This document shows, in pieces, positions 10,653 to 20,874 of a stretch of 64,000 nucleotides of DNA. The notes beneath the pieces were generated by a model. That model made no database searches, was not told the origin of the DNA, and was given only the letters and a program-made list of their open reading frames with translations. Both the position numbers and the translations under genes were made by a program. Numbering within the stretch: position 1 is the first letter of the stretch; every line of letters begins with the position of its first letter. Source of the DNA: Natrinema versiforme. GTDB taxonomy: Archaea > Halobacteriota > Halobacteria > Halobacteriales > Natrialbaceae. Location of the stretch: positions 992,001 to 1,056,000 of the forward strand of contig NZ_CP040330.1 of the NCBI RefSeq assembly GCF_005576615.1, given 5' to 3'.

Positions 10653-10718
10653 CGCGACCGCGGCGGGCGGCGGCCGCCGATCAGCCGATTGAAGTGCGCG
10701 CGACTCCCTTGCGAGTCC

Positions 10719-11657
10719 ATGAACGAGACGCGACGAGCGATCCTCGAGGCGATCGCGGACGGGCCGGTGTCGGGGCCCGAACTGGCCGAGTCGCTCGATA
10801 TCTCGCGGGCGGCCGTCTGGAAGCACATCGACGGGCTGCGCGAGGCCGACTTCGAGATCGAGAGCGGACCGACCGGCTACGAACTGACCGCCGTCGCGGC
10901 GTACAACGCCCCGGCTGTCGAGTTCGAACTCGAGGCCCCGTTCTCGGTCGAGTACCACGACTCCGTGGGGAGCACCAACGACCGGGCGCGCGAGCTGGCG
11001 GCCGAGGGCGCGACGGACGTGGCCGTCCTCGCGGACGAACAGGTCGGCGGCCGCGGCCGCCTCGAGCGCGAGTGGTCCTCGCCGTCGGGCGGCGTCTGGG
11101 TCAGCGTCCTGACGCGACCGGCCGTCGCGCCCGCGCAGGCCCCGCTGTACACGCTCGCGGCGTCGGTCGCCACGGCCACGGCGGCTCGAGAGGCGGGCGT
11201 CGACGCCCGGATCAAGTGGCCTAACGACGTGGTCGTCCCGGTCGGCGACGACGGCGACTACCGAAAGCTCGCGGGGATCCTCACGGAGATGGAAGGGGAG
11301 ACCGACCGCGTGGAGTGGCTCGCCGTCGGGCTCGGCGTCAACGCGAACCTCGACGCCGACGCGCTGCCCGAGGGCGCGACCAGCATCCGCGAGGAGGCGG
11401 GCGACGTCGACCGGCGACGGTTCGTCCAGCGGCTCTTGGAGTCGTTCGATCGGTATCGAACCGACCTCGAGGCGGTCGTCCCCGCGTGGCGCGAGCTGGC
11501 GCTGACGATCGGCCAGCGGGTACGCGTCGACCGTCCCACTGGCGAAATCGTCGGTGAGGCGATCGACGTGACGGAGTCCGGGGCCCTCGTCGTTGAGACC
11601 GAGAACGGGCGGGAGACCGTTACGGCGGGCGACTGCGAGCACTTGCGGCCGGTCTAA
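10719..11657 (+). CDS. birA: Bifunctional biotin ligase / biotin repressor BirA
   Basis: A 312-residue protein. Residues 1-60 are a winged HTH (RRAILEAIADGPVSGPELAE, then ISRAAVWKHIDGLRE), residues about 80-265 the biotin-protein ligase domain, and the end an SH3-like domain (GQRVRVDRPTGEIVG). Catalytic motifs are GGRGRLEREW, SPSGGVWVS and IKWPNDVVV. It activates biotin to biotinyl-AMP, loads it on carboxylase carriers and, given the HTH, probably represses biotin genes such as bioYMN at 18.8 kb. The ATG at 10719 is chosen over an earlier in-frame start because the HTH begins directly after it. Confidence 0.93.
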   Translation: MNETRRAILEAIADGPVSGPELAESLDISRAAVWKHIDGLREADFEIESGPTGYELTAVAAYNAPAVEFELEAPFSVEYHDSVGSTNDRARELAAEGATDVAVLADEQVGGRGRLEREWSSPSGGVWVSVLTRPAVAPAQAPLYTLAASVATATAAREAGVDARIKWPNDVVVPVGDDGDYRKLAGILTEMEGETDRVEWLAVGLGVNANLDADALPEGATSIREEAGDVDRRRFVQRLLESFDRYRTDLEAVVPAWRELALTIGQRVRVDRPTGEIVGEAIDVTESGALVVETENGRETVTAGDCEHLRPV

Positions 11658-13510: not shown

Positions 13511-16500
13511 CTATCCGGCGCCGGCGGTTTCGTTTCCGGTATCCGCAGCGCCCGCCGCGGCTCCGGCAGACTCACTATCGGCTCCCGCAGCCGCGCCGTC
13601 CGCCTCGGGGGTGTCCGTCGTCTCTGCCGGTTGATCGGCCGGCGTGTCTTCTGCAGGCGTTTCCGCCGGCCCGCCGTCGGGCGTCTCGGTCGGCTGGGAC
13701 TCCGTGGGTGACGTGTCGGCTTCGTTGTCCGCGCCGGGGTCGTCCGGTTGCGCCGACTCCGCCGGCGGTTCGTCGGGCGGTGCCGGTTCGTCGGGCTGCT
13801 CCGGTGGCGTCGGCTCGGTCGGCTCGTCCGCCTCACCCGTTTCCGTTCCGTCGATCGGTTCCGCGTCGCCGTCCGACTCCGCGGTCGCCGCTGCGGTCGC
13901 TTCGATCGTCACCGACGCCTGCTCGTCGTCGGTCGCGATCGCGTGCGTCGAGGTGCCCTCGGGCAGCGGCGACGAGAACTGGATCTCGGCCGACTGCCCG
14001 CCCGCGAGCGTCACGCTCTCCTCGGAAACCGGCTGGCCGTCGACGCTGTAGGTCACCGTCTGGGCCCCCTCGAGATCGCCCTGATTCTCGACCGTCGCCG
14101 TCACCGCTACTTCCTCGCCGGGGTCGCCGGTCTCGGGCGCGGCGATATCAGTCACGGCGAACGTCGCCGGCTCGCCGCTCGTCTCGACGGTGACCGTTGT
14201 CTCGGCCGTCTCGTTCTCGCTCGAGACCGCGAGCGGATACTCGCCGGGCTCGAGGTCGTCCGTCTCGTAACTCAGCGTGGCCGTCTGGGTTTCGTCGGGC
14301 TCGAGTGTAACCGGCACCGACTCGCCGGGCGCACCGCCGACAGCGATTTCGACGTCTTGGGTTCCGGCTTCGTCACCGACGTTCTCGAGGTCGGCCTCGA
14401 CCGTAACGGGCTCGCCCTGTTCGACCGGGCTGTTGGTCCCAGCGATCGAGGCGGTGAACGTCGCCGGCTCGCCGCTCTCCACGACGGTCACCGTCGTCTC
14501 GGCCGTCTCGTTCTCGCTCGAGACCGCGAGCGGATACTCGCCGGGCTCGAGGTCGTCCGTCGGAGCCGTAAACGAGACGGTCTGGGTCTCGCCGGCCTCG
14601 AGCGAGACCGACTCCGAGTCGACCGCGGTGTCGCCGACCGCGAGCGAGACGGTTTGCGCGCCCGCGTCGCCGCCGGTGTTCTGCACGTCGGCTTCGACCG
14701 CGAGTTGCTCACCCTGTTCGACCGGACCGTTGGTTCCGGCAATCGAGACGTTGAACGCCGCAGGGTCGGCCGGTTCGATCTCGCCGGCGGTCGGCGTTTC
14801 GGCGGTCACGGGCTCGTCGTAGCCGTAGTTCGCGAAGTCGGTCTGCCAGACGAGCCGCTCGTCGTCGCTCTCGGGCGTCCACTCGACGGTGAACGCGTTT
14901 TCGCCGGGTTCCAACTCGGTCGGCGGTTCGTCGGTCGCGGTCCCCTCGACGAACTCGCTGTTTCCGCTCATCGTCGCGTTGTTCGGGTTCTCGTAGCCGA
15001 ACGTCACGTCGATGGCCTCGCCGTCGTCGGTCGGCGTCGTCTCCTCGACCGACAGCGACGGTAGGTCCGGCCGGGCCTCCTCGGCGCACGTCTGCGCGTC
15101 GGGGTTCGCGTAGTCGATCGACGCGAAGGGCACCGCTTCCGGCGAACTGATCCCGGAGATGTACGTCCCGAAGGTGCCGTAGTCGGGCACCTCGACGGTC
15201 ACCTCGTCGCCGTCGGTCGTCATGCTGCGCTCGTCGCCGATCTCGAAGACGATCGTCCCGTTAAACGGAGCCTCGACGTCCTCGCCGACGGCGACGTAGT
15301 CTTCGATGATCGTGTTACCGAAGCCGGCCTGATCGTAGAAGCCCGTGCTCGCGGCGACCTGATCGCCGTCCTCGAGCGAGGCATCGACGACCGCGCGCGA
15401 ACAGCTCGCGAACTCGACGTCGAAGTCCGCGAGGTCGCCGTCGACTGTGTACTCGACGGCATCCGTCTCGAGGGCCGTTCCGTCCTCGGCCGCGACGACC
15501 GAGACGTTGAGCGTCGAATTCTCCTCGAGCGGGGGATCGAGGTCGAACTCCGTCGGGCCGATCGTCTCGTTGGCCGTGAACGGCTCGCTCTCGGCGAGCT
15601 GGGTTCCGTTTTCGTCGGTAACGGTCAGCGCGTACTCGACGGAGGCGTTGGCCGAGGTGATGGTCAGCGTCTCGCCGTCGCCGGTCTGATCGGCGACCGA
15701 GAGGTTCGCCGTCGGTGCCCCGGGCTCCGGCTCGACGACCGCGTACTCGACTGACTCGGTCGCCAGTGCCGCGTCGTCAGCCGCGGCGCGAACGGAGACG
15801 TTGACGGTCGCGTTCTCCTCGAGTGGCGGTTCGAGATCGAGGCGCTCCTCCGCGACCGTCTCGTTCGCCTCGAACTGCTCGCTGTCGACGCGTTCGCCGT
15901 CGTACTCCGCCGTCACGACGTACGGGACGGTCGCGCTCGCCGCGTCGATCTCGAGGGTCTCGCCGTCACCCTCCTGATCGTCGACCGAGAGCGTCGCTTC
16001 GGGCTCGTCGGTCTCGTTCGCGACCGTGTACTCGATCGTCTCGTTCTCGAGGACCGTTCCGTCCTCGCCGACGACCGAGACGTCGACCGACGCGTTCGTC
16101 TCGAGTGGCGGCTCGAGGTCGAGCGCGAGATCCGTTATCGGCTCGCCGGCCGCGAACGCGTCGCTCTCGACCGTCTCCCCGTCGTACGTCACGGTCACGG
16201 TGTAGGGAACCGACGCGTTCGCCTCGTCGACGGTCAGCGTTTGTCCGTCGCCTTCCTGATCGGCCACCGACAGCGTCGCGTTGGGCTCCACGTCGGGTTC
16301 GTCGGACTCGTCGGTCACCGTCACGAACGCGCCGTCGAGCGCCGGCGCTCCGCTTCCGGTGACGTATGGTACGTCGTCCTCACCGTCGGACTCGACGTAG
16401 TCGAACGCCTCGTCGTCGTTCGTATCGTGGTGGGCGACCGCCACGAGCGGCCCGCTTTCGTTCAGCGGCTCGTCGAGGTCGATCGTCACGTTCTCGTGCT

Positions 16501-18346
16501 CGCCGGCCTCGAGATAGCTCGAGACGCCGACGACGTCGTCGGGATCGGCGTCGACGGCGACGCCCTCGTAGACGGCGACGAACCCGCCCTCCGAAAGCGA
16601 CGTGTTCCCGACGGTGACGCTCTCACCGTCGCTCTCTTGGTCCGAGACGTCGAGCGACGCAGTGCCCTCGATCCGGTCGATCGTCTCGATGCGCTGTTCG
16701 ACCTCGATCTCGACGTGCTGGCTGATGACGGTGATGTCGTCGGTGTCCTCCTGAATCGCGTAGGCCGTCGCGTCGGCCGCGGTCTCCGCCGTCACGGACT
16801 GGAGCTGCGTGATGCTGATCCGCTGGGACTGGACCGCTCGAGCCGTCTCCTCGCAGGCGCTTCGGGCGGCCGTCTGGATCTGCGTGACCGACGCGTCCTG
16901 CGATTGGACGAGCGCACCGCTCGCACCGCCGCGCGCGAGGCGCTGGACCTGCGTCACGTCGACGACCTGCGTCTGGGTCACCGCTCCCTCACTGGCACCG
17001 AACGCGGCGGCCTGGACCTGTTCGACGGTGACTTCCTGTCGCTGGATCGCGCTGGTAACCGCGCCCTCCGCGGCGCCGGTCGCGGCGGACTGGACCTGCG
17101 TGACCGACACCGTCTGTCGCTGGACGAGCGCGCCGCCCGCCCCGCCGTCAGCCGCGGCCTGAATCTGCTCGACGGTCGCCTCCTGACTCTGGGCGATCGC
17201 ACCCTTCGCCGCGCCGAAGGAAGCTTCCTGTACCTGCGTGATCGAAATCCGCTGGCGCTGCTCGATGCTGACTGACTGGACCTGTTTCAGCGACCCCCGG
17301 CTCGCGCCGCGGGCCGTCGCTTGGGTCTGTTCGACCGAGACCGCTTGCTCCTGGACGAGCGCGCCCTTCGCCGCCCCGGCCGCGGACTTCTGAATCTGCT
17401 TGATCGTCACGCGCTGGCGTTGCTCGGCCTCGACGCGCTGTTCCTGCTCGAGCACCGCGTCCGCACTCCCCTCGAGCGAGCCGGCGGCGGCTCCGGCCGC
17501 CGCGTGCTGGACGTGCTCGAGGGTAACCCGCTGGCGCTGCTCGACCGATATCGACTGGTACTGCGTCAGGACGCCGTAGGCCGACCCCTGTGCGGCTTCC
17601 TGAATTTTCGCTACCGTTCCGATGTCTTTCGCACCGGCCTCGCTCGCTGCACCGGCGGCCGCGCCGTTGGTCGCGACCTGTAACTGCTCGACGCTCACGC
17701 GCTGACTCTGGGCGACCGCACCGTGTGCCGCGCCCCAGGTCGCGCTCTGTAGCTGGGTGGCGTTCACCGATTGCGACTGGGAGAGCCCGCCATCGGTCGC
17801 GCCGCCGATCGCGTACTGGATCTGGGTGGCGTTGACCGACTGCTCCTGAATCAGCGCGCCGTGGACGGCACCCTTCGTCGCCGCCTGAACCTGCTCGGCT
17901 TCGACGGATTGGTACTGGGACGCCGATTCTCGCGCCCCCTCGAGCGCCGCCGTTCGCTGCTCTTGGGTCACCTCGACGCCTTGGGACTGCACGAGTGCAA
18001 TCCCCTCGTCGACGCCGGTTTCGACGGCGTCCTCGCGGTCCCCTTGGATCGCGACCTGCTCGTTCGTTCCGCCCGCGCCAGTCGACTCGCCGTCCGCCGC
18101 TGGCGACTCCAGCGTCACCAGTTCGAAGTCCGAGTCGGCCGCCGATTGGACTCCCTCCTGACTTCCGTTTTCCTGCAGTGCGGCCTGCGATTCGTCCTCG
18201 AGCGGCGACGCAGCGGCCGCGTCGGCGTCCCCGTCGTCTGAACCGAACGGGCCGAGGCCGCCACCGAGTAGCGGCAACGCGACGACGCTTCCCACCATCG
18301 CGGCCGCGACTAGAACGACGGCGACCGTCGTTCGGCGTCGACTCAT
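13511..18346 (-). CDS. Giant secreted surface protein with Gln-rich 23-residue repeats, DUF7282-like and CARDB-like domains
   Basis: A 1611-residue exported protein. Residues 1-25 are a Sec-type signal (MSRRRTTVAVVLVAAAMVGS). Residues about 115-535 hold about 16 units of a 23-residue repeat, Q-[VIL]-Q-x-A-A-x-G-A-A-x-G-A-[LV]-x-Q-x-Q-x-V-S-V-[ET], sometimes with an 8-residue insert of the type QRQRISIT. Next come a DUF7282-like domain (about 560-690), about four adhesin-like units of about 90 residues opening LSVxDQxGDGETLT, a Cys-containing domain (about 1040-1215), three CARDB-like beta units (about 1220-1500), and a Pro/Glu/Thr/Asp-rich stalk to the end. No C-terminal membrane helix or PGF sorting motif is seen, so cell attachment is unclear. 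A role in adhesion or envelope structure is inferred. Confidence 0.85.
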   Translation of the reverse strand: MSRRRTTVAVVLVAAAMVGSVVALPLLGGGLGPFGSDDGDADAAAASPLEDESQAALQENGSQEGVQSAADSDFELVTLESPAADGESTGAGGTNEQVAIQGDREDAVETGVDEGIALVQSQGVEVTQEQRTAALEGARESASQYQSVEAEQVQAATKGAVHGALIQEQSVNATQIQYAIGGATDGGLSQSQSVNATQLQSATWGAAHGAVAQSQRVSVEQLQVATNGAAAGAASEAGAKDIGTVAKIQEAAQGSAYGVLTQYQSISVEQRQRVTLEHVQHAAAGAAAGSLEGSADAVLEQEQRVEAEQRQRVTIKQIQKSAAGAAKGALVQEQAVSVEQTQATARGASRGSLKQVQSVSIEQRQRISITQVQEASFGAAKGAIAQSQEATVEQIQAAADGGAGGALVQRQTVSVTQVQSAATGAAEGAVTSAIQRQEVTVEQVQAAAFGASEGAVTQTQVVDVTQVQRLARGGASGALVQSQDASVTQIQTAARSACEETARAVQSQRISITQLQSVTAETAADATAYAIQEDTDDITVISQHVEIEVEQRIETIDRIEGTASLDVSDQESDGESVTVGNTSLSEGGFVAVYEGVAVDADPDDVVGVSSYLEAGEHENVTIDLDEPLNESGPLVAVAHHDTNDDEAFDYVESDGEDDVPYVTGSGAPALDGAFVTVTDESDEPDVEPNATLSVADQEGDGQTLTVDEANASVPYTVTVTYDGETVESDAFAAGEPITDLALDLEPPLETNASVDVSVVGEDGTVLENETIEYTVANETDEPEATLSVDDQEGDGETLEIDAASATVPYVVTAEYDGERVDSEQFEANETVAEERLDLEPPLEENATVNVSVRAAADDAALATESVEYAVVEPEPGAPTANLSVADQTGDGETLTITSANASVEYALTVTDENGTQLAESEPFTANETIGPTEFDLDPPLEENSTLNVSVVAAEDGTALETDAVEYTVDGDLADFDVEFASCSRAVVDASLEDGDQVAASTGFYDQAGFGNTIIEDYVAVGEDVEAPFNGTIVFEIGDERSMTTDGDEVTVEVPDYGTFGTYISGISSPEAVPFASIDYANPDAQTCAEEARPDLPSLSVEETTPTDDGEAIDVTFGYENPNNATMSGNSEFVEGTATDEPPTELEPGENAFTVEWTPESDDERLVWQTDFANYGYDEPVTAETPTAGEIEPADPAAFNVSIAGTNGPVEQGEQLAVEADVQNTGGDAGAQTVSLAVGDTAVDSESVSLEAGETQTVSFTAPTDDLEPGEYPLAVSSENETAETTVTVVESGEPATFTASIAGTNSPVEQGEPVTVEADLENVGDEAGTQDVEIAVGGAPGESVPVTLEPDETQTATLSYETDDLEPGEYPLAVSSENETAETTVTVETSGEPATFAVTDIAAPETGDPGEEVAVTATVENQGDLEGAQTVTYSVDGQPVSEESVTLAGGQSAEIQFSSPLPEGTSTHAIATDDEQASVTIEATAAATAESDGDAEPIDGTETGEADEPTEPTPPEQPDEPAPPDEPPAESAQPDDPGADNEADTSPTESQPTETPDGGPAETPAEDTPADQPAETTDTPEADGAAAGADSESAGAAAGAADTGNETAGAG
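16755..18005 (-). repeat. Coding repeat array of the Gln-rich domain
   Basis: About 16 in-frame units of 69 nt (23 codons), several extended by 24 nt, encoding the Q-x-Q / G-A-x-x-G-A pattern. Units differ at many codons, so the array is old or under amino-acid selection; it is not a recent slipped-strand expansion. Confidence 0.8.
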
Positions 18347-18811
18347 CGGTCGCCCCCGCCGCCGCGAAGCCCTCCGTCGCGGATCACACGCCCGTCAGGA
18401 CCCCACCGTTCGACTGCAGCTCCGGCTCCATCGGCACTGCGTTGGCACGCCGGACGTACTGTCTGATACCCCGAATTGCCGGACTTCGTACTACCGGATC
18501 GCATTTTCCCACCACGGGGTGGAATTCGTGCATAAGGACGCCGGTCGTTTCGGTTAGTGAGTCGAGACAATCGGCTATTACTCGGCGTTTCGTTGCGAAC
18601 AACGAGCGTAAACAGCGGACAGCGGCGCGAAAGGAGGTGGTTTCCGCGCGACCGACGATGGCCGCAACGCTCCATACAACTGGGAGGAAGCGCATTGTTT
18701 CGACCGGCCTCGTCGCCCGACTCGAGGGGCGACTCGAGCGGACGTGTCAACGTCCGTTCCGATAATCTCGGAAACCGAAGTATTGATCCCGGTTTACGAG
18801 AGAGCGAGGGT
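18347..18811. other. Divergent intergenic region, surface protein gene and bioY
   Basis: About 465 bases without a convincing gene. ORFs of up to about 100 codons here show no coding bias or family resemblance. The right end holds the bioY promoter region with an inverted repeat (18772-18795). Confidence 0.55.
18772..18795. promoter_or_regulatory. Inverted repeat at the bioY promoter, candidate biotin operator
   Basis: AAACCG, 12-nt spacer, CGGTTT; perfect 6-bp arms ending 16 nt before the bioY ATG at 18812. The position over the core promoter suits repression. Binding by the HTH-bearing BirA encoded at 10.7 kb is inferred only. Confidence 0.4.
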
Positions 18812-19399
18812 ATGGCAACGGAACGGAACTCGGTCGATCCCGTCGACGATGCCGTCGTCCGGCAGTTCGCTCGGGCGGCGATGCTCGCGGCGCTGATGGG
18901 GGCGTCGGTACTGGTGTCGATCCCGATCCCCCTCTCGCCGGCTCCGATCACGCTGCAGGTGCTGTTCGTCTTCCTCGCCGGGCTCGTCTTGGGTCCGGTC
19001 TGGGGGCCGATCTCGGTCCTGTTATACCTCACGTCGGGTGCCGCCGGCGCACCGGTCTTCGCCGGCATGAACAGCGGGCTCGGCATCCTGATCGGGCAGA
19101 CGGCCGGCTACCTGTGGTCGTACCCGATCGCCGCGGCGCTGATCGGCCTCATCGTCCACCGCGGACCGGCGTTGCGCGATCTGCGGACCGTTCGACTCCC
19201 GGTCCTGATCGGTGCGCTCCTCATGGGGACGATCGTAATCTACGGGATGGGGACTGCCTACATGGCGTGGCTCCTCGAGATGGAGGCATGGGAGGCTATT
19301 GCGGCCGGCGCGCTCCCCTTTATTCCCGGCGAACTCCTCAAGATCGCCGCGGCGGTCGCCATCGTCAGGTCCGGCCGAATCACGCCGGTTCGATCGTGA
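18812..19399 (+). CDS. bioY: Biotin ECF transporter, substrate-binding S component BioY
   Basis: A 195-residue integral membrane protein with about six transmembrane segments. The BioY signature is clear: IPLSPAPITLQVLFVFLAG, then LYLTSGAAGAPVFAG and GYLWSYPIAAALIG. It captures biotin at the membrane and works with the ATPase BioM and transmembrane BioN encoded next. The ATG at 18812 is preferred to much earlier in-frame starts because the hydrophobic family core begins about 20 residues later. It starts a three-gene operon; bioM begins 8 nt after its stop. Confidence 0.95.
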   Translation: MATERNSVDPVDDAVVRQFARAAMLAALMGASVLVSIPIPLSPAPITLQVLFVFLAGLVLGPVWGPISVLLYLTSGAAGAPVFAGMNSGLGILIGQTAGYLWSYPIAAALIGLIVHRGPALRDLRTVRLPVLIGALLMGTIVIYGMGTAYMAWLLEMEAWEAIAAGALPFIPGELLKIAAAVAIVRSGRITPVRS

Positions 19400-19406
19400 C
19401 GACCCG

Positions 19407-20111
19407 ATGATCGAGTTCCAGTCGGTCTCCCACGCGTTCGAGGACATCCCCATCCTCGAGGACGTATCGCTGACGATCGACGACGGCGAGTTCGTCCTGC
19501 TTGCGGGGGCAAACGGCAGCGGGAAGACGACGCTGTTGCGCCACTGCAACGGCCTGTTGACGCCCGACTCCGGCGCGGTCCTCGTCGACGGAACACCCGT
19601 CGCGGACGACCTGATCGCCGCCCGCTCGAACGTCGGGATGGTCTTCCAACACCCCCGCGATCAGTTCGTCTCGGCGACCGTGGGGGCAGACGTCGCCTTC
19701 GGCCCCGAAAACCTCGGGCTAGAACGCGAGGCAATCGACCGCCGCGTCGCGACCGCACTCGAGGCGGTCAACATGGCCGGTCGGGAGGACGACCGGATCG
19801 AGACGCTCTCCGGCGGCGAGCAGTCCCGCGTGGCGATCGCGGGCGCGCTCGCGATGGACCCCGCCCACCTCGTCCTCGACGAACCCTTCACCGGGCTCGA
19901 CGAACCCGCGCGCCGATCGGTACTCGAGCGACTCGAGTCGCTGTCGGCCGACGGCACCGGAATCCTGCTCGCGACCCACGACCTCCGTGACGTCTCCGCG
20001 CTCGCGGACCGCGTCATCGCCATGCGAGACGGGCGCGTCGCCGTTGACGGACCGCTCGAGGACGCGCTGGGGGACCTCGAAGACCTCGCGGTTCGCGTTC
20101 CGGACCGATGA
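19407..20111 (+). CDS. bioM: Biotin ECF transporter ATPase BioM (EcfA type)
   Basis: A 234-residue ABC ATPase that energises biotin uptake. Walker A is GANGSGKTT (about residue 37), the Q loop is VFQHPRDQ, the signature is LSGGEQSRVAIAGAL, and Walker B is HLVLDEPFTGLD, followed by the H loop ATHDLRD. The FQHPRDQ form is typical of ECF ATPases. Start at ATG 19407, 8 nt after bioY, keeps the canonical opening MIEFQSVSHAFED. Its stop overlaps the ATG of a 22-codon ORF that in turn overlaps the bioN start. Confidence 0.95.
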   Translation: MIEFQSVSHAFEDIPILEDVSLTIDDGEFVLLAGANGSGKTTLLRHCNGLLTPDSGAVLVDGTPVADDLIAARSNVGMVFQHPRDQFVSATVGADVAFGPENLGLEREAIDRRVATALEAVNMAGREDDRIETLSGGEQSRVAIAGALAMDPAHLVLDEPFTGLDEPARRSVLERLESLSADGTGILLATHDLRDVSALADRVIAMRDGRVAVDGPLEDALGDLEDLAVRVPDR

Positions 20112-20176
20112 CCGAACGGGACGAATCGCCGCGACCGACGCGATCGACGCGGCCCACGGGAGGGAAGCGATGCTGA
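20108..20176 (+). CDS. 22-codon minicistron linking bioM to bioN (candidate)
   Basis: An ORF reading MTERDESPRPTRSTRPTGGK and two more residues. Its ATG overlaps the bioM stop as ATGA, and its TGA stop (20174-20176) lies just inside the bioN start (ATG 20170). This geometry could let ribosomes re-initiate from bioM into bioN. It may be chance, or mark a shifted bioN start. Confidence 0.3.
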   Translation: MTERDESPRPTRSTRPTGGKRC

Positions 20177-20874
20177 CGTTCGAACCCGACGAAACGGTCG
20201 CCCACCGCCTCGATCCCCGGACCAAACTGGCGGTCCAGATCGGGTTCGCCGCCACCGCGCTGGCACACACGACGCCGCGGGCGCTGCTCGTCCTCTCCGC
20301 GCTGACCGCGATTGCGGTGGCCGCGGCGAACGTCCCGCTTCGCCGCACCCTCGTCGCCTACCGCTTCGCCCTGCTCGTCCTCGCGCTCGCACCCCTGATC
20401 GCGGGGGCCACGTTCGGCCCGCCCTGGATCGATCGATCGGACGCCCTCGCGTCGGGGCTTGCGAGCTACCGGGTCCTACTTATCCTCCTCGTCAGCGCGG
20501 CCTACGTGCGTTCGACGCCGGTTCGAGACTCTCGAGCGGCGATCCAGCGGACGGTTCCCGGAAAGCCGGGCCAGATACTCGGCATCGGCGTCGCGCTCGT
20601 CTTTCGGTTCCTCCCGGTGCTTCGGGGCGACCTCCGGACGATCCGCGAGGCGATGGCCGCTCGGCTGGGAACCGAACGCGGCGCGGTCGACCGCGCCGGG
20701 ACGACCGCTATCCTCGGGCTGACGCGGGCGTTCGACCGAGCGGATCGCCTCTCGCTCGCGCTGCAAGCGCGGTGTTTCGCGTGGAACCCCACGCTCCCGC
20801 CGCTTTCCTTCTCGCGGGCCGACTACCCCGTCCTCGTTCTCGCCGTCGTCCTCGCGCTGTCGACGTTTTACTGA
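20170..20874 (+). CDS. bioN: Biotin ECF transporter transmembrane component BioN (EcfT type)
   Basis: A 234-residue membrane coupling subunit. It opens MLTFEPDETVAHRLDPRTKL as EcfT proteins do, contains about five hydrophobic segments, and carries the coupling-helix motif near the end (SLALQARCF, related to the ARG box contacting the ATPase). With BioY and BioM it forms the ECF biotin importer. No in-frame start lies closer to bioM, so a 58-nt gap remains that is filled by the minicistron. Confidence 0.9.
   Translation: MLTFEPDETVAHRLDPRTKLAVQIGFAATALAHTTPRALLVLSALTAIAVAAANVPLRRTLVAYRFALLVLALAPLIAGATFGPPWIDRSDALASGLASYRVLLILLVSAAYVRSTPVRDSRAAIQRTVPGKPGQILGIGVALVFRFLPVLRGDLRTIREAMAARLGTERGAVDRAGTTAILGLTRAFDRADRLSLALQARCFAWNPTLPPLSFSRADYPVLVLAVVLALSTFY

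Follow-up and report, generated by a model that had tools for sequence, protein, structure and literature searches.

Curlin repeats (CsgA) are extracellular and consist of units of about 22 residues in which Gln recurs at regular intervals in a V-x-V-T-Q context. Gly-zipper families of the Pfam PF13441 (YMGG-like) type are short domains without a Gln motif, and TAL effector repeats are intracellular, DNA-binding, two-helix units of 34 residues. PGF-CTERM archaeosortase substrates end in a PGF motif, a transmembrane (TM) helix and a basic tail. FD15 (PDB 8UGC) is a designed flat helix-turn-helix-turn protein with a two-helix repeat and straight, close-packed antiparallel helices, in which helices in adjacent repeats lie 8.7 Å apart (PMC10721895).

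The repeat array considered here is encoded in Natrinema versiforme, within a stretch of 64,000 nucleotides that was analysed as a whole (the window). It resembles curlin repeats in unit length and Gln spacing but is predicted to be helical; the curlin Pfam model matched none of 76 homologues, and no curli-type secretion genes were noticed beside the repeat gene. The array has small-xxx-small helices in common with the Gly-zipper families, and PF13441 gave a weak match in 5 of the 76 homologues (best E 5e-5), the window protein being unmatched. TAL effector repeats, which like the array form an alpha-solenoid of short helices, appear in the Foldseek lists but score weakly there (E about 0.002 to 0.005, TM about 0.12-0.15), and the array unit, with 23 residues and one predicted helix, differs from their 34-residue unit, which has a repeat-variable di-residue at positions 12-13. 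The window protein lacks the PGF-CTERM signature, and a search of the C-terminal 60 residues in 54 homologues found no PGF.

The earlier note on this DNA had been unable to assign the repeat to a known family, and this holds: no Pfam or NCBIfam family covered the window array above the curated cut-off, no family was common to more than 6 of the 76 homologues, and PDB sequences gave nothing at E <= 1 for the array (phmmer and profile search). Among the papers searched, none dealt with DUF7282, a domain that follows the array, or with such a repeat. We rate the repeat family as undescribed, within the known alpha-solenoid kind. The absence of a conserved, widespread haloarchaeal repeat domain from Pfam, NCBIfam and PDB sequences is a gap in the knowledge of archaeal cell surfaces.

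Organization of the gene and its repeat array

The open reading frame begins with ATG and encodes 1,611 residues, its position, strand and length being as the earlier note had given them (ORF, translation). The following features were identified:

13511..18346, minus strand: putative secreted repeat protein, 1,611 aa (ORF, ATG start, translation, purifying selection on the frame)
18242..18346, minus strand: residues 1-35, N-terminal hydrophobic segment after MSRRR (sequence)
16712..18061, minus strand: residues 96-545, 23-residue repeat array, about 17 helical units (autocorrelation, alignment A1, AF2)
17597..17599, minus strand: Glu250 in the signature IQEAAQGxAYG, 99% conserved (76-sequence alignment)
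17540..17563, minus strand: residues 262-269, 8-residue insert QYQSISVE (unit parse; missing in about a fifth of A1 rows)
17423..17446, minus strand: residues 301-308, 8-residue insert QEQRVEAE (unit parse; low-confidence stretch of the AF2 model)
17399..17401, minus strand: Lys316 in V-x-[IV]-K-Q-[IV]-Q, invariant in 76/76 (alignment)
17261..17284, minus strand: residues 355-362, 8-residue insert QVQSVSIE (unit parse)
16319..16660, minus strand: residues 563-676, DUF7282 domain (Pfam PF23951, E = 3.7e-35)
15512..16285, minus strand: residues about 688-945, three copies of a domain beginning A[TN]LSV[AD]DQ.GDG.TL (translation)
13877..14734, minus strand: residues 1205-1490, CARDB (Ig-like) domains (Pfam PF07705, E = 7.4e-15, three stretches)
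14154-14768: 297-bp tandem duplication in the CARDB part, 78% matches (TRF)
13514..13876, minus strand: residues 1491-1611, acidic low-complexity tail, D+E 29%, no K/R (composition)

The first 35 residues are probably a Sec signal peptide, or else an N-terminal anchor, as judged from their sequence, and a comparable hydrophobic stretch begins nearly all homologues. The array is followed in order by DUF7282 (PF23951, 120.9 bits against a cut-off of 27), three related unnamed domains for which Pfam gave no match, the CARDB domains and the acidic tail. This tail is polar and contains no hydrophobic segment, in agreement with the earlier note, which had seen no C-terminal anchor.

Haloarchaeal exported proteins are as a rule strongly acidic. 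The array breaks this rule, with 10.7% D+E compared with 20-29% in the other parts of the protein, and Gln makes up 15.8% of it. N-glycosylation sequons number 2 in the 450 residues of the repeat versus 19 in the next 650. A structure of the array would show an alternative way of staying folded or of assembling in saturated salt.

The self-identity of residues 103-545 at a lag of 23 is 0.267, compared with 0.106 +/- 0.014 over 2,000 shuffles (z = 11.3), so that the 23-residue period described earlier is real and extends over residues ~96-545. Lags 31, 46 and 54 are likewise raised (31 = 23+8; 54 = 46+8), and lags 31 and 54 confirm the additional 8-residue module that the earlier note had described in some units. 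Parsed into units, the array has the consensus QxQxV(S/T)V(E/T)QxQxAAxGAAxGALx. Units are spaced by 23 residues, with variants of 25, 26, 31 and 49; among the units counted, 15 carry the G-x3-G motif or a near variant of it, the final two are degenerate, and one precedes the first unit given in the earlier note. Four Gln, two Gly and several Ala are nearly invariant in each unit across families at about 50% identity. On a helix, the variable positions -8, -4, -1, +3 and +7 share one face, and the near-invariant G0, G+4, Q-7 and A-3 share the opposite face.

Conservation and distribution of the repeat domain

Among 392 genomes from the order Halobacteriales, 121 contained the repeat domain, and these represent 34 of 95 genera; within the family Natrialbaceae it was present in 104 of 125 genomes and was missing from every listed genome of two Natrialbaceae genera (g2 and g11). 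No match lies outside Halobacteriales, all 13 hits in a 295-genome sample of the phylum falling within the order. In most Natrialbaceae genomes the domain is 58-93% identical over its full length, and its closest named relative, at 93%, is from Natrinema versiforme. In most of these genomes the gene is present once, complete and at a conserved genomic position. Among near relatives, the repeat has a lower dN/dS (0.14-0.21) than residues 546-1195 (0.26-0.39) and the CARDB part (0.21-0.56).

When units were compared between genomes, the best match of a unit was the one with the same number in 277 of 314 cases, which indicates that the length and order of the array have been held. At the DNA level, TRF detected a tandem repeat in the array for only one pair of units (17708-17843), which argues that the array is old. 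Judged from these sequences, the repeat domain is old and constrained, and the array is neither expanding nor homogenising, every unit retaining its own identity between genera. Recent tandem expansion or an assembly artefact was rejected, since units are orthologous across genera and TRF finds a single unit pair. The 297-bp CARDB duplication is younger, in contrast with the old N-terminal array.

Further copies of the array in the same genome were also rejected: 12 other matches cover almost only the C-terminal domains, and although one starts at residue 516, at the end of the array, none covers the array. A phage or virus origin was dismissed with zero matches in phage records or viral contigs, and a mobile or plasmid origin with only two plasmid matches, both to haloarchaeal megaplasmids. 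Homologues L063/L073 lie on a 359 kb replicon (a Halomicrococcus gelatinilyticus plasmid) and L083 on a 327 kb replicon; the gene can therefore reside on megaplasmids. A Halobaculum marinum plasmid was also among the sequences matched. The L080 homologue, an open frame of 530 aa, ends in unrelated basic sequence inside the array, apparently through a frameshift, and the gene may be broken there.

In Natrialbaceae the gene stands alone between a DUF7545 gene (convergent) and bioY (divergent). It has no functional partner genes beside it in this family, and the other families have no neighbours in common; an operon with partner genes was rejected accordingly. In the window, a biotin ligase of the BirA type (10689-11657) lies on one flank, and BioY, an ABC ATPase and a CbiQ-type T component (18557-20874) lie on the other; the BioY arrangement is kept across Natrialbaceae and not beyond. 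The divergent repeat gene and bioY could have a common control region.

Predicted structure of the array

AF2, given residues 95-560 and the 76-row alignment A1 (all rows haloarchaeal relatives), returned an all-alpha model of 466 residues (mean pLDDT 89.4, pTM 0.90). A second run on residues 309-545, which overlaps the first and is not independent of it, gave identical helices (pLDDT 87.1, pTM 0.89). In every unit a single helix of about 16 residues begins near the S/T-V-E/T-Q motif, and a link of 6-8 residues follows it; QxQxVxVxQxQ becomes an extended loop and the first helical turn, and strands of at least three residues are absent in both runs. With 23-residue units of one helix each, stacked, the modelled array has the form of an alpha-solenoid. 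The array is thus modelled with confidence as ordered rather than disordered throughout, and no described family matches it. For the design of repeat proteins, a one-helix unit of 23 residues offers a compact template taken from nature.

The earlier note had proposed a beta-strand ladder combined with glycine-zipper helices, which could build a filament or sheet outside the cell. Put as a model, this is a mixed alpha/beta solenoid able to polymerise, in which QxQxVxVxQ would form a parallel strand ladder with GxxxG helices packed on it. Its small-residue G-x3-G helices are retained in the all-alpha models; its strand ladder is not. The beta-like pattern behind the proposal nevertheless exists, since conservation over QxQxVxVxQxQ alternates strictly (180 degrees, p = 0.004, 10/11 units), which is more beta-like than the start of a helix requires. 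The corresponding peak in the AAxGAAxGAL core lies at 95 degrees (p = 0.09 at 100 degrees), so that a helical period there is only suggestive. In addition, two small paralogues have helix-free QSQSVDVSQSQ arrays, which suggests that the module is partly independent and can stand alone. Against a ladder, an 11-residue strand would measure about 36 Å and a helix of about 10 residues 15 Å, probably too unequal for a simple beta-alpha coil. We regard the mixed fold as improbable; the helical model and the period-2 pattern can both be true.

The composition of the array, with its low charge and its Gln content, and the QSQS-rich tails of paralogues would also suit an amyloid-like, aggregating matrix protein without a fixed fold in solution. 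Strong column-wise constraint, unit-specific residues, fixed unit order and high AF2 confidence all point to a defined fold, and such aggregation appears very unlikely.

For both models the best structural match in the PDB was FD15 (first model: Z 10.6, rmsd 11.2 Å, 306 aa; second model: Z 8.4, rmsd 8.2 Å, 223 aa), both Z values being below the caution level of about 13 for helical repeats. Since scores under that level may reflect a common helical-repeat arrangement, neither a relationship nor a new fold is claimed; the comparison covered Foldseek's short list, within which a missing natural match is no proof of a new fold. FD15 may resemble the array model in its straight, close-packed antiparallel helices, but it is man-made, unrelated in sequence (16% identity), covered with carboxylates and built with short turns, and the rmsd of 8-11 Å means that the overall shape differs. 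The alignment pairs successive helices over 306 of about 320 residues; as FD15 is a helix-turn-helix-turn protein, consecutive helices in the model would be antiparallel. Matches to Amt/Rh channels (Z up to 7.8, about 105 aa) were read as generic close helix packing and set aside, and a viral fold library gave no convincing match.

Location, possible roles and paralogues

An extracellular location is supported by the N-terminal hydrophobic leader, the sequon-rich C-terminal half and a C-terminal TM segment in some relatives. The latter are five homologues from other families (L067, L069, L070, L082 and L083), all without PGF. C-terminal modules are exchanged between families and include DUF7282 in several copies, CARDB, TSP3, NosD beta-helix and Thr/Pro-rich tails. 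By its sequence, the protein is built like a surface protein whose N-terminal part stays constant and whose other domains, probably for display, can be exchanged.

The reading that we prefer, and to which we give about an even chance, is a secreted haloarchaeal envelope or matrix protein with a structural or adhesive role as spacer, in cohesion or in the matrix. The protein would be exported via Sec, and each unit would contribute one helix, consecutive helices packing closely and antiparallel through Ala and Gly, with the QxQxV links capping the helix ends to give a rod or a sheet-like alpha-solenoid. This solenoid, predicted to be stiff, non-acidic and barely glycosylated, would carry the acidic, sequon-rich Ig-like domains; it may serve as a protein-contact surface, packing against itself or other envelope components, with the variable C-terminal domains displayed outward. 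Because its C-terminus has no anchor, the window protein would be held by its N-terminus or by contact between array and envelope, or be released. The solitary gene without adjoining functional partners in Natrialbaceae argues against a scaffold of this kind, as does the period-2 conservation with a weak helical period in the core.

Unit-specific residues also count against it, as they could mean recognition of a specific ligand rather than bulk packing. In addition to E250 and K316, H162 (93%), H208 (97%) and Y257 (91%) are conserved in the 76 sequences, across families sharing about 50% identity. H162, H208 and Y257 occupy the same helix position (offset +3) in units 2, 4 and 6 and have no counterpart in units 3, 5 and 7. 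A simple motif test found the E motif together with the K motif in every canonical homologue except one, and neither of them in Tat-type paralogues. The array could accordingly bind a glycan, another surface protein or a metal at a putative unique site in units 2-8 around H162, H208, E250, Q253, Y257 and K316, the rest serving as scaffold. However, the E250 and K316 motifs are separated by about 41-43 residues when no additional insert falls between the two, with one intervening unit in most families, and since units i and i+2 would adjoin on one face of an antiparallel array, the two residues likely form a salt bridge that may be purely structural. No solved ligand-binding relative was found in the PDB sequence searches. 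Recognition is, on balance, an unlikely alternative to the envelope or matrix role.

A far more speculative reading, to which we give very little weight, is that a natural array that is straight, close-packed, low in charge and Gln-rich assembles edge to edge on the haloarchaeal surface into sheets or filaments, or templates an ordered layer there (S-layer, matrix or salt crystal). If true, edge-to-edge assembly would provide a natural counterpart of designed flat repeat proteins.

Second loci in other Natrialbaceae (L062, L121, L122 and L124) encode paralogues with a twin-arginine type leader, whose units are often of 26 residues (QYQEVTVEQIQYVASGAAQGAISGVA) and lack the E250/K316 signature. 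The L121 protein, an open reading frame of 348 aa on the minus strand, has C-terminal QSQSVDVSQSQ arrays that lack the helical half of the unit, together with a linker rich in Lys and Pro, which is unusual in a haloarchaeal protein. A wide helix-free QSQSV family was rejected, such arrays being clear in only two genomes. In Natronococcus pandeyae, a 1,531-aa protein with a RRRLMQLTAASAM leader is encoded downstream of the Tat-type repeat protein (L062:10727-15319:+).
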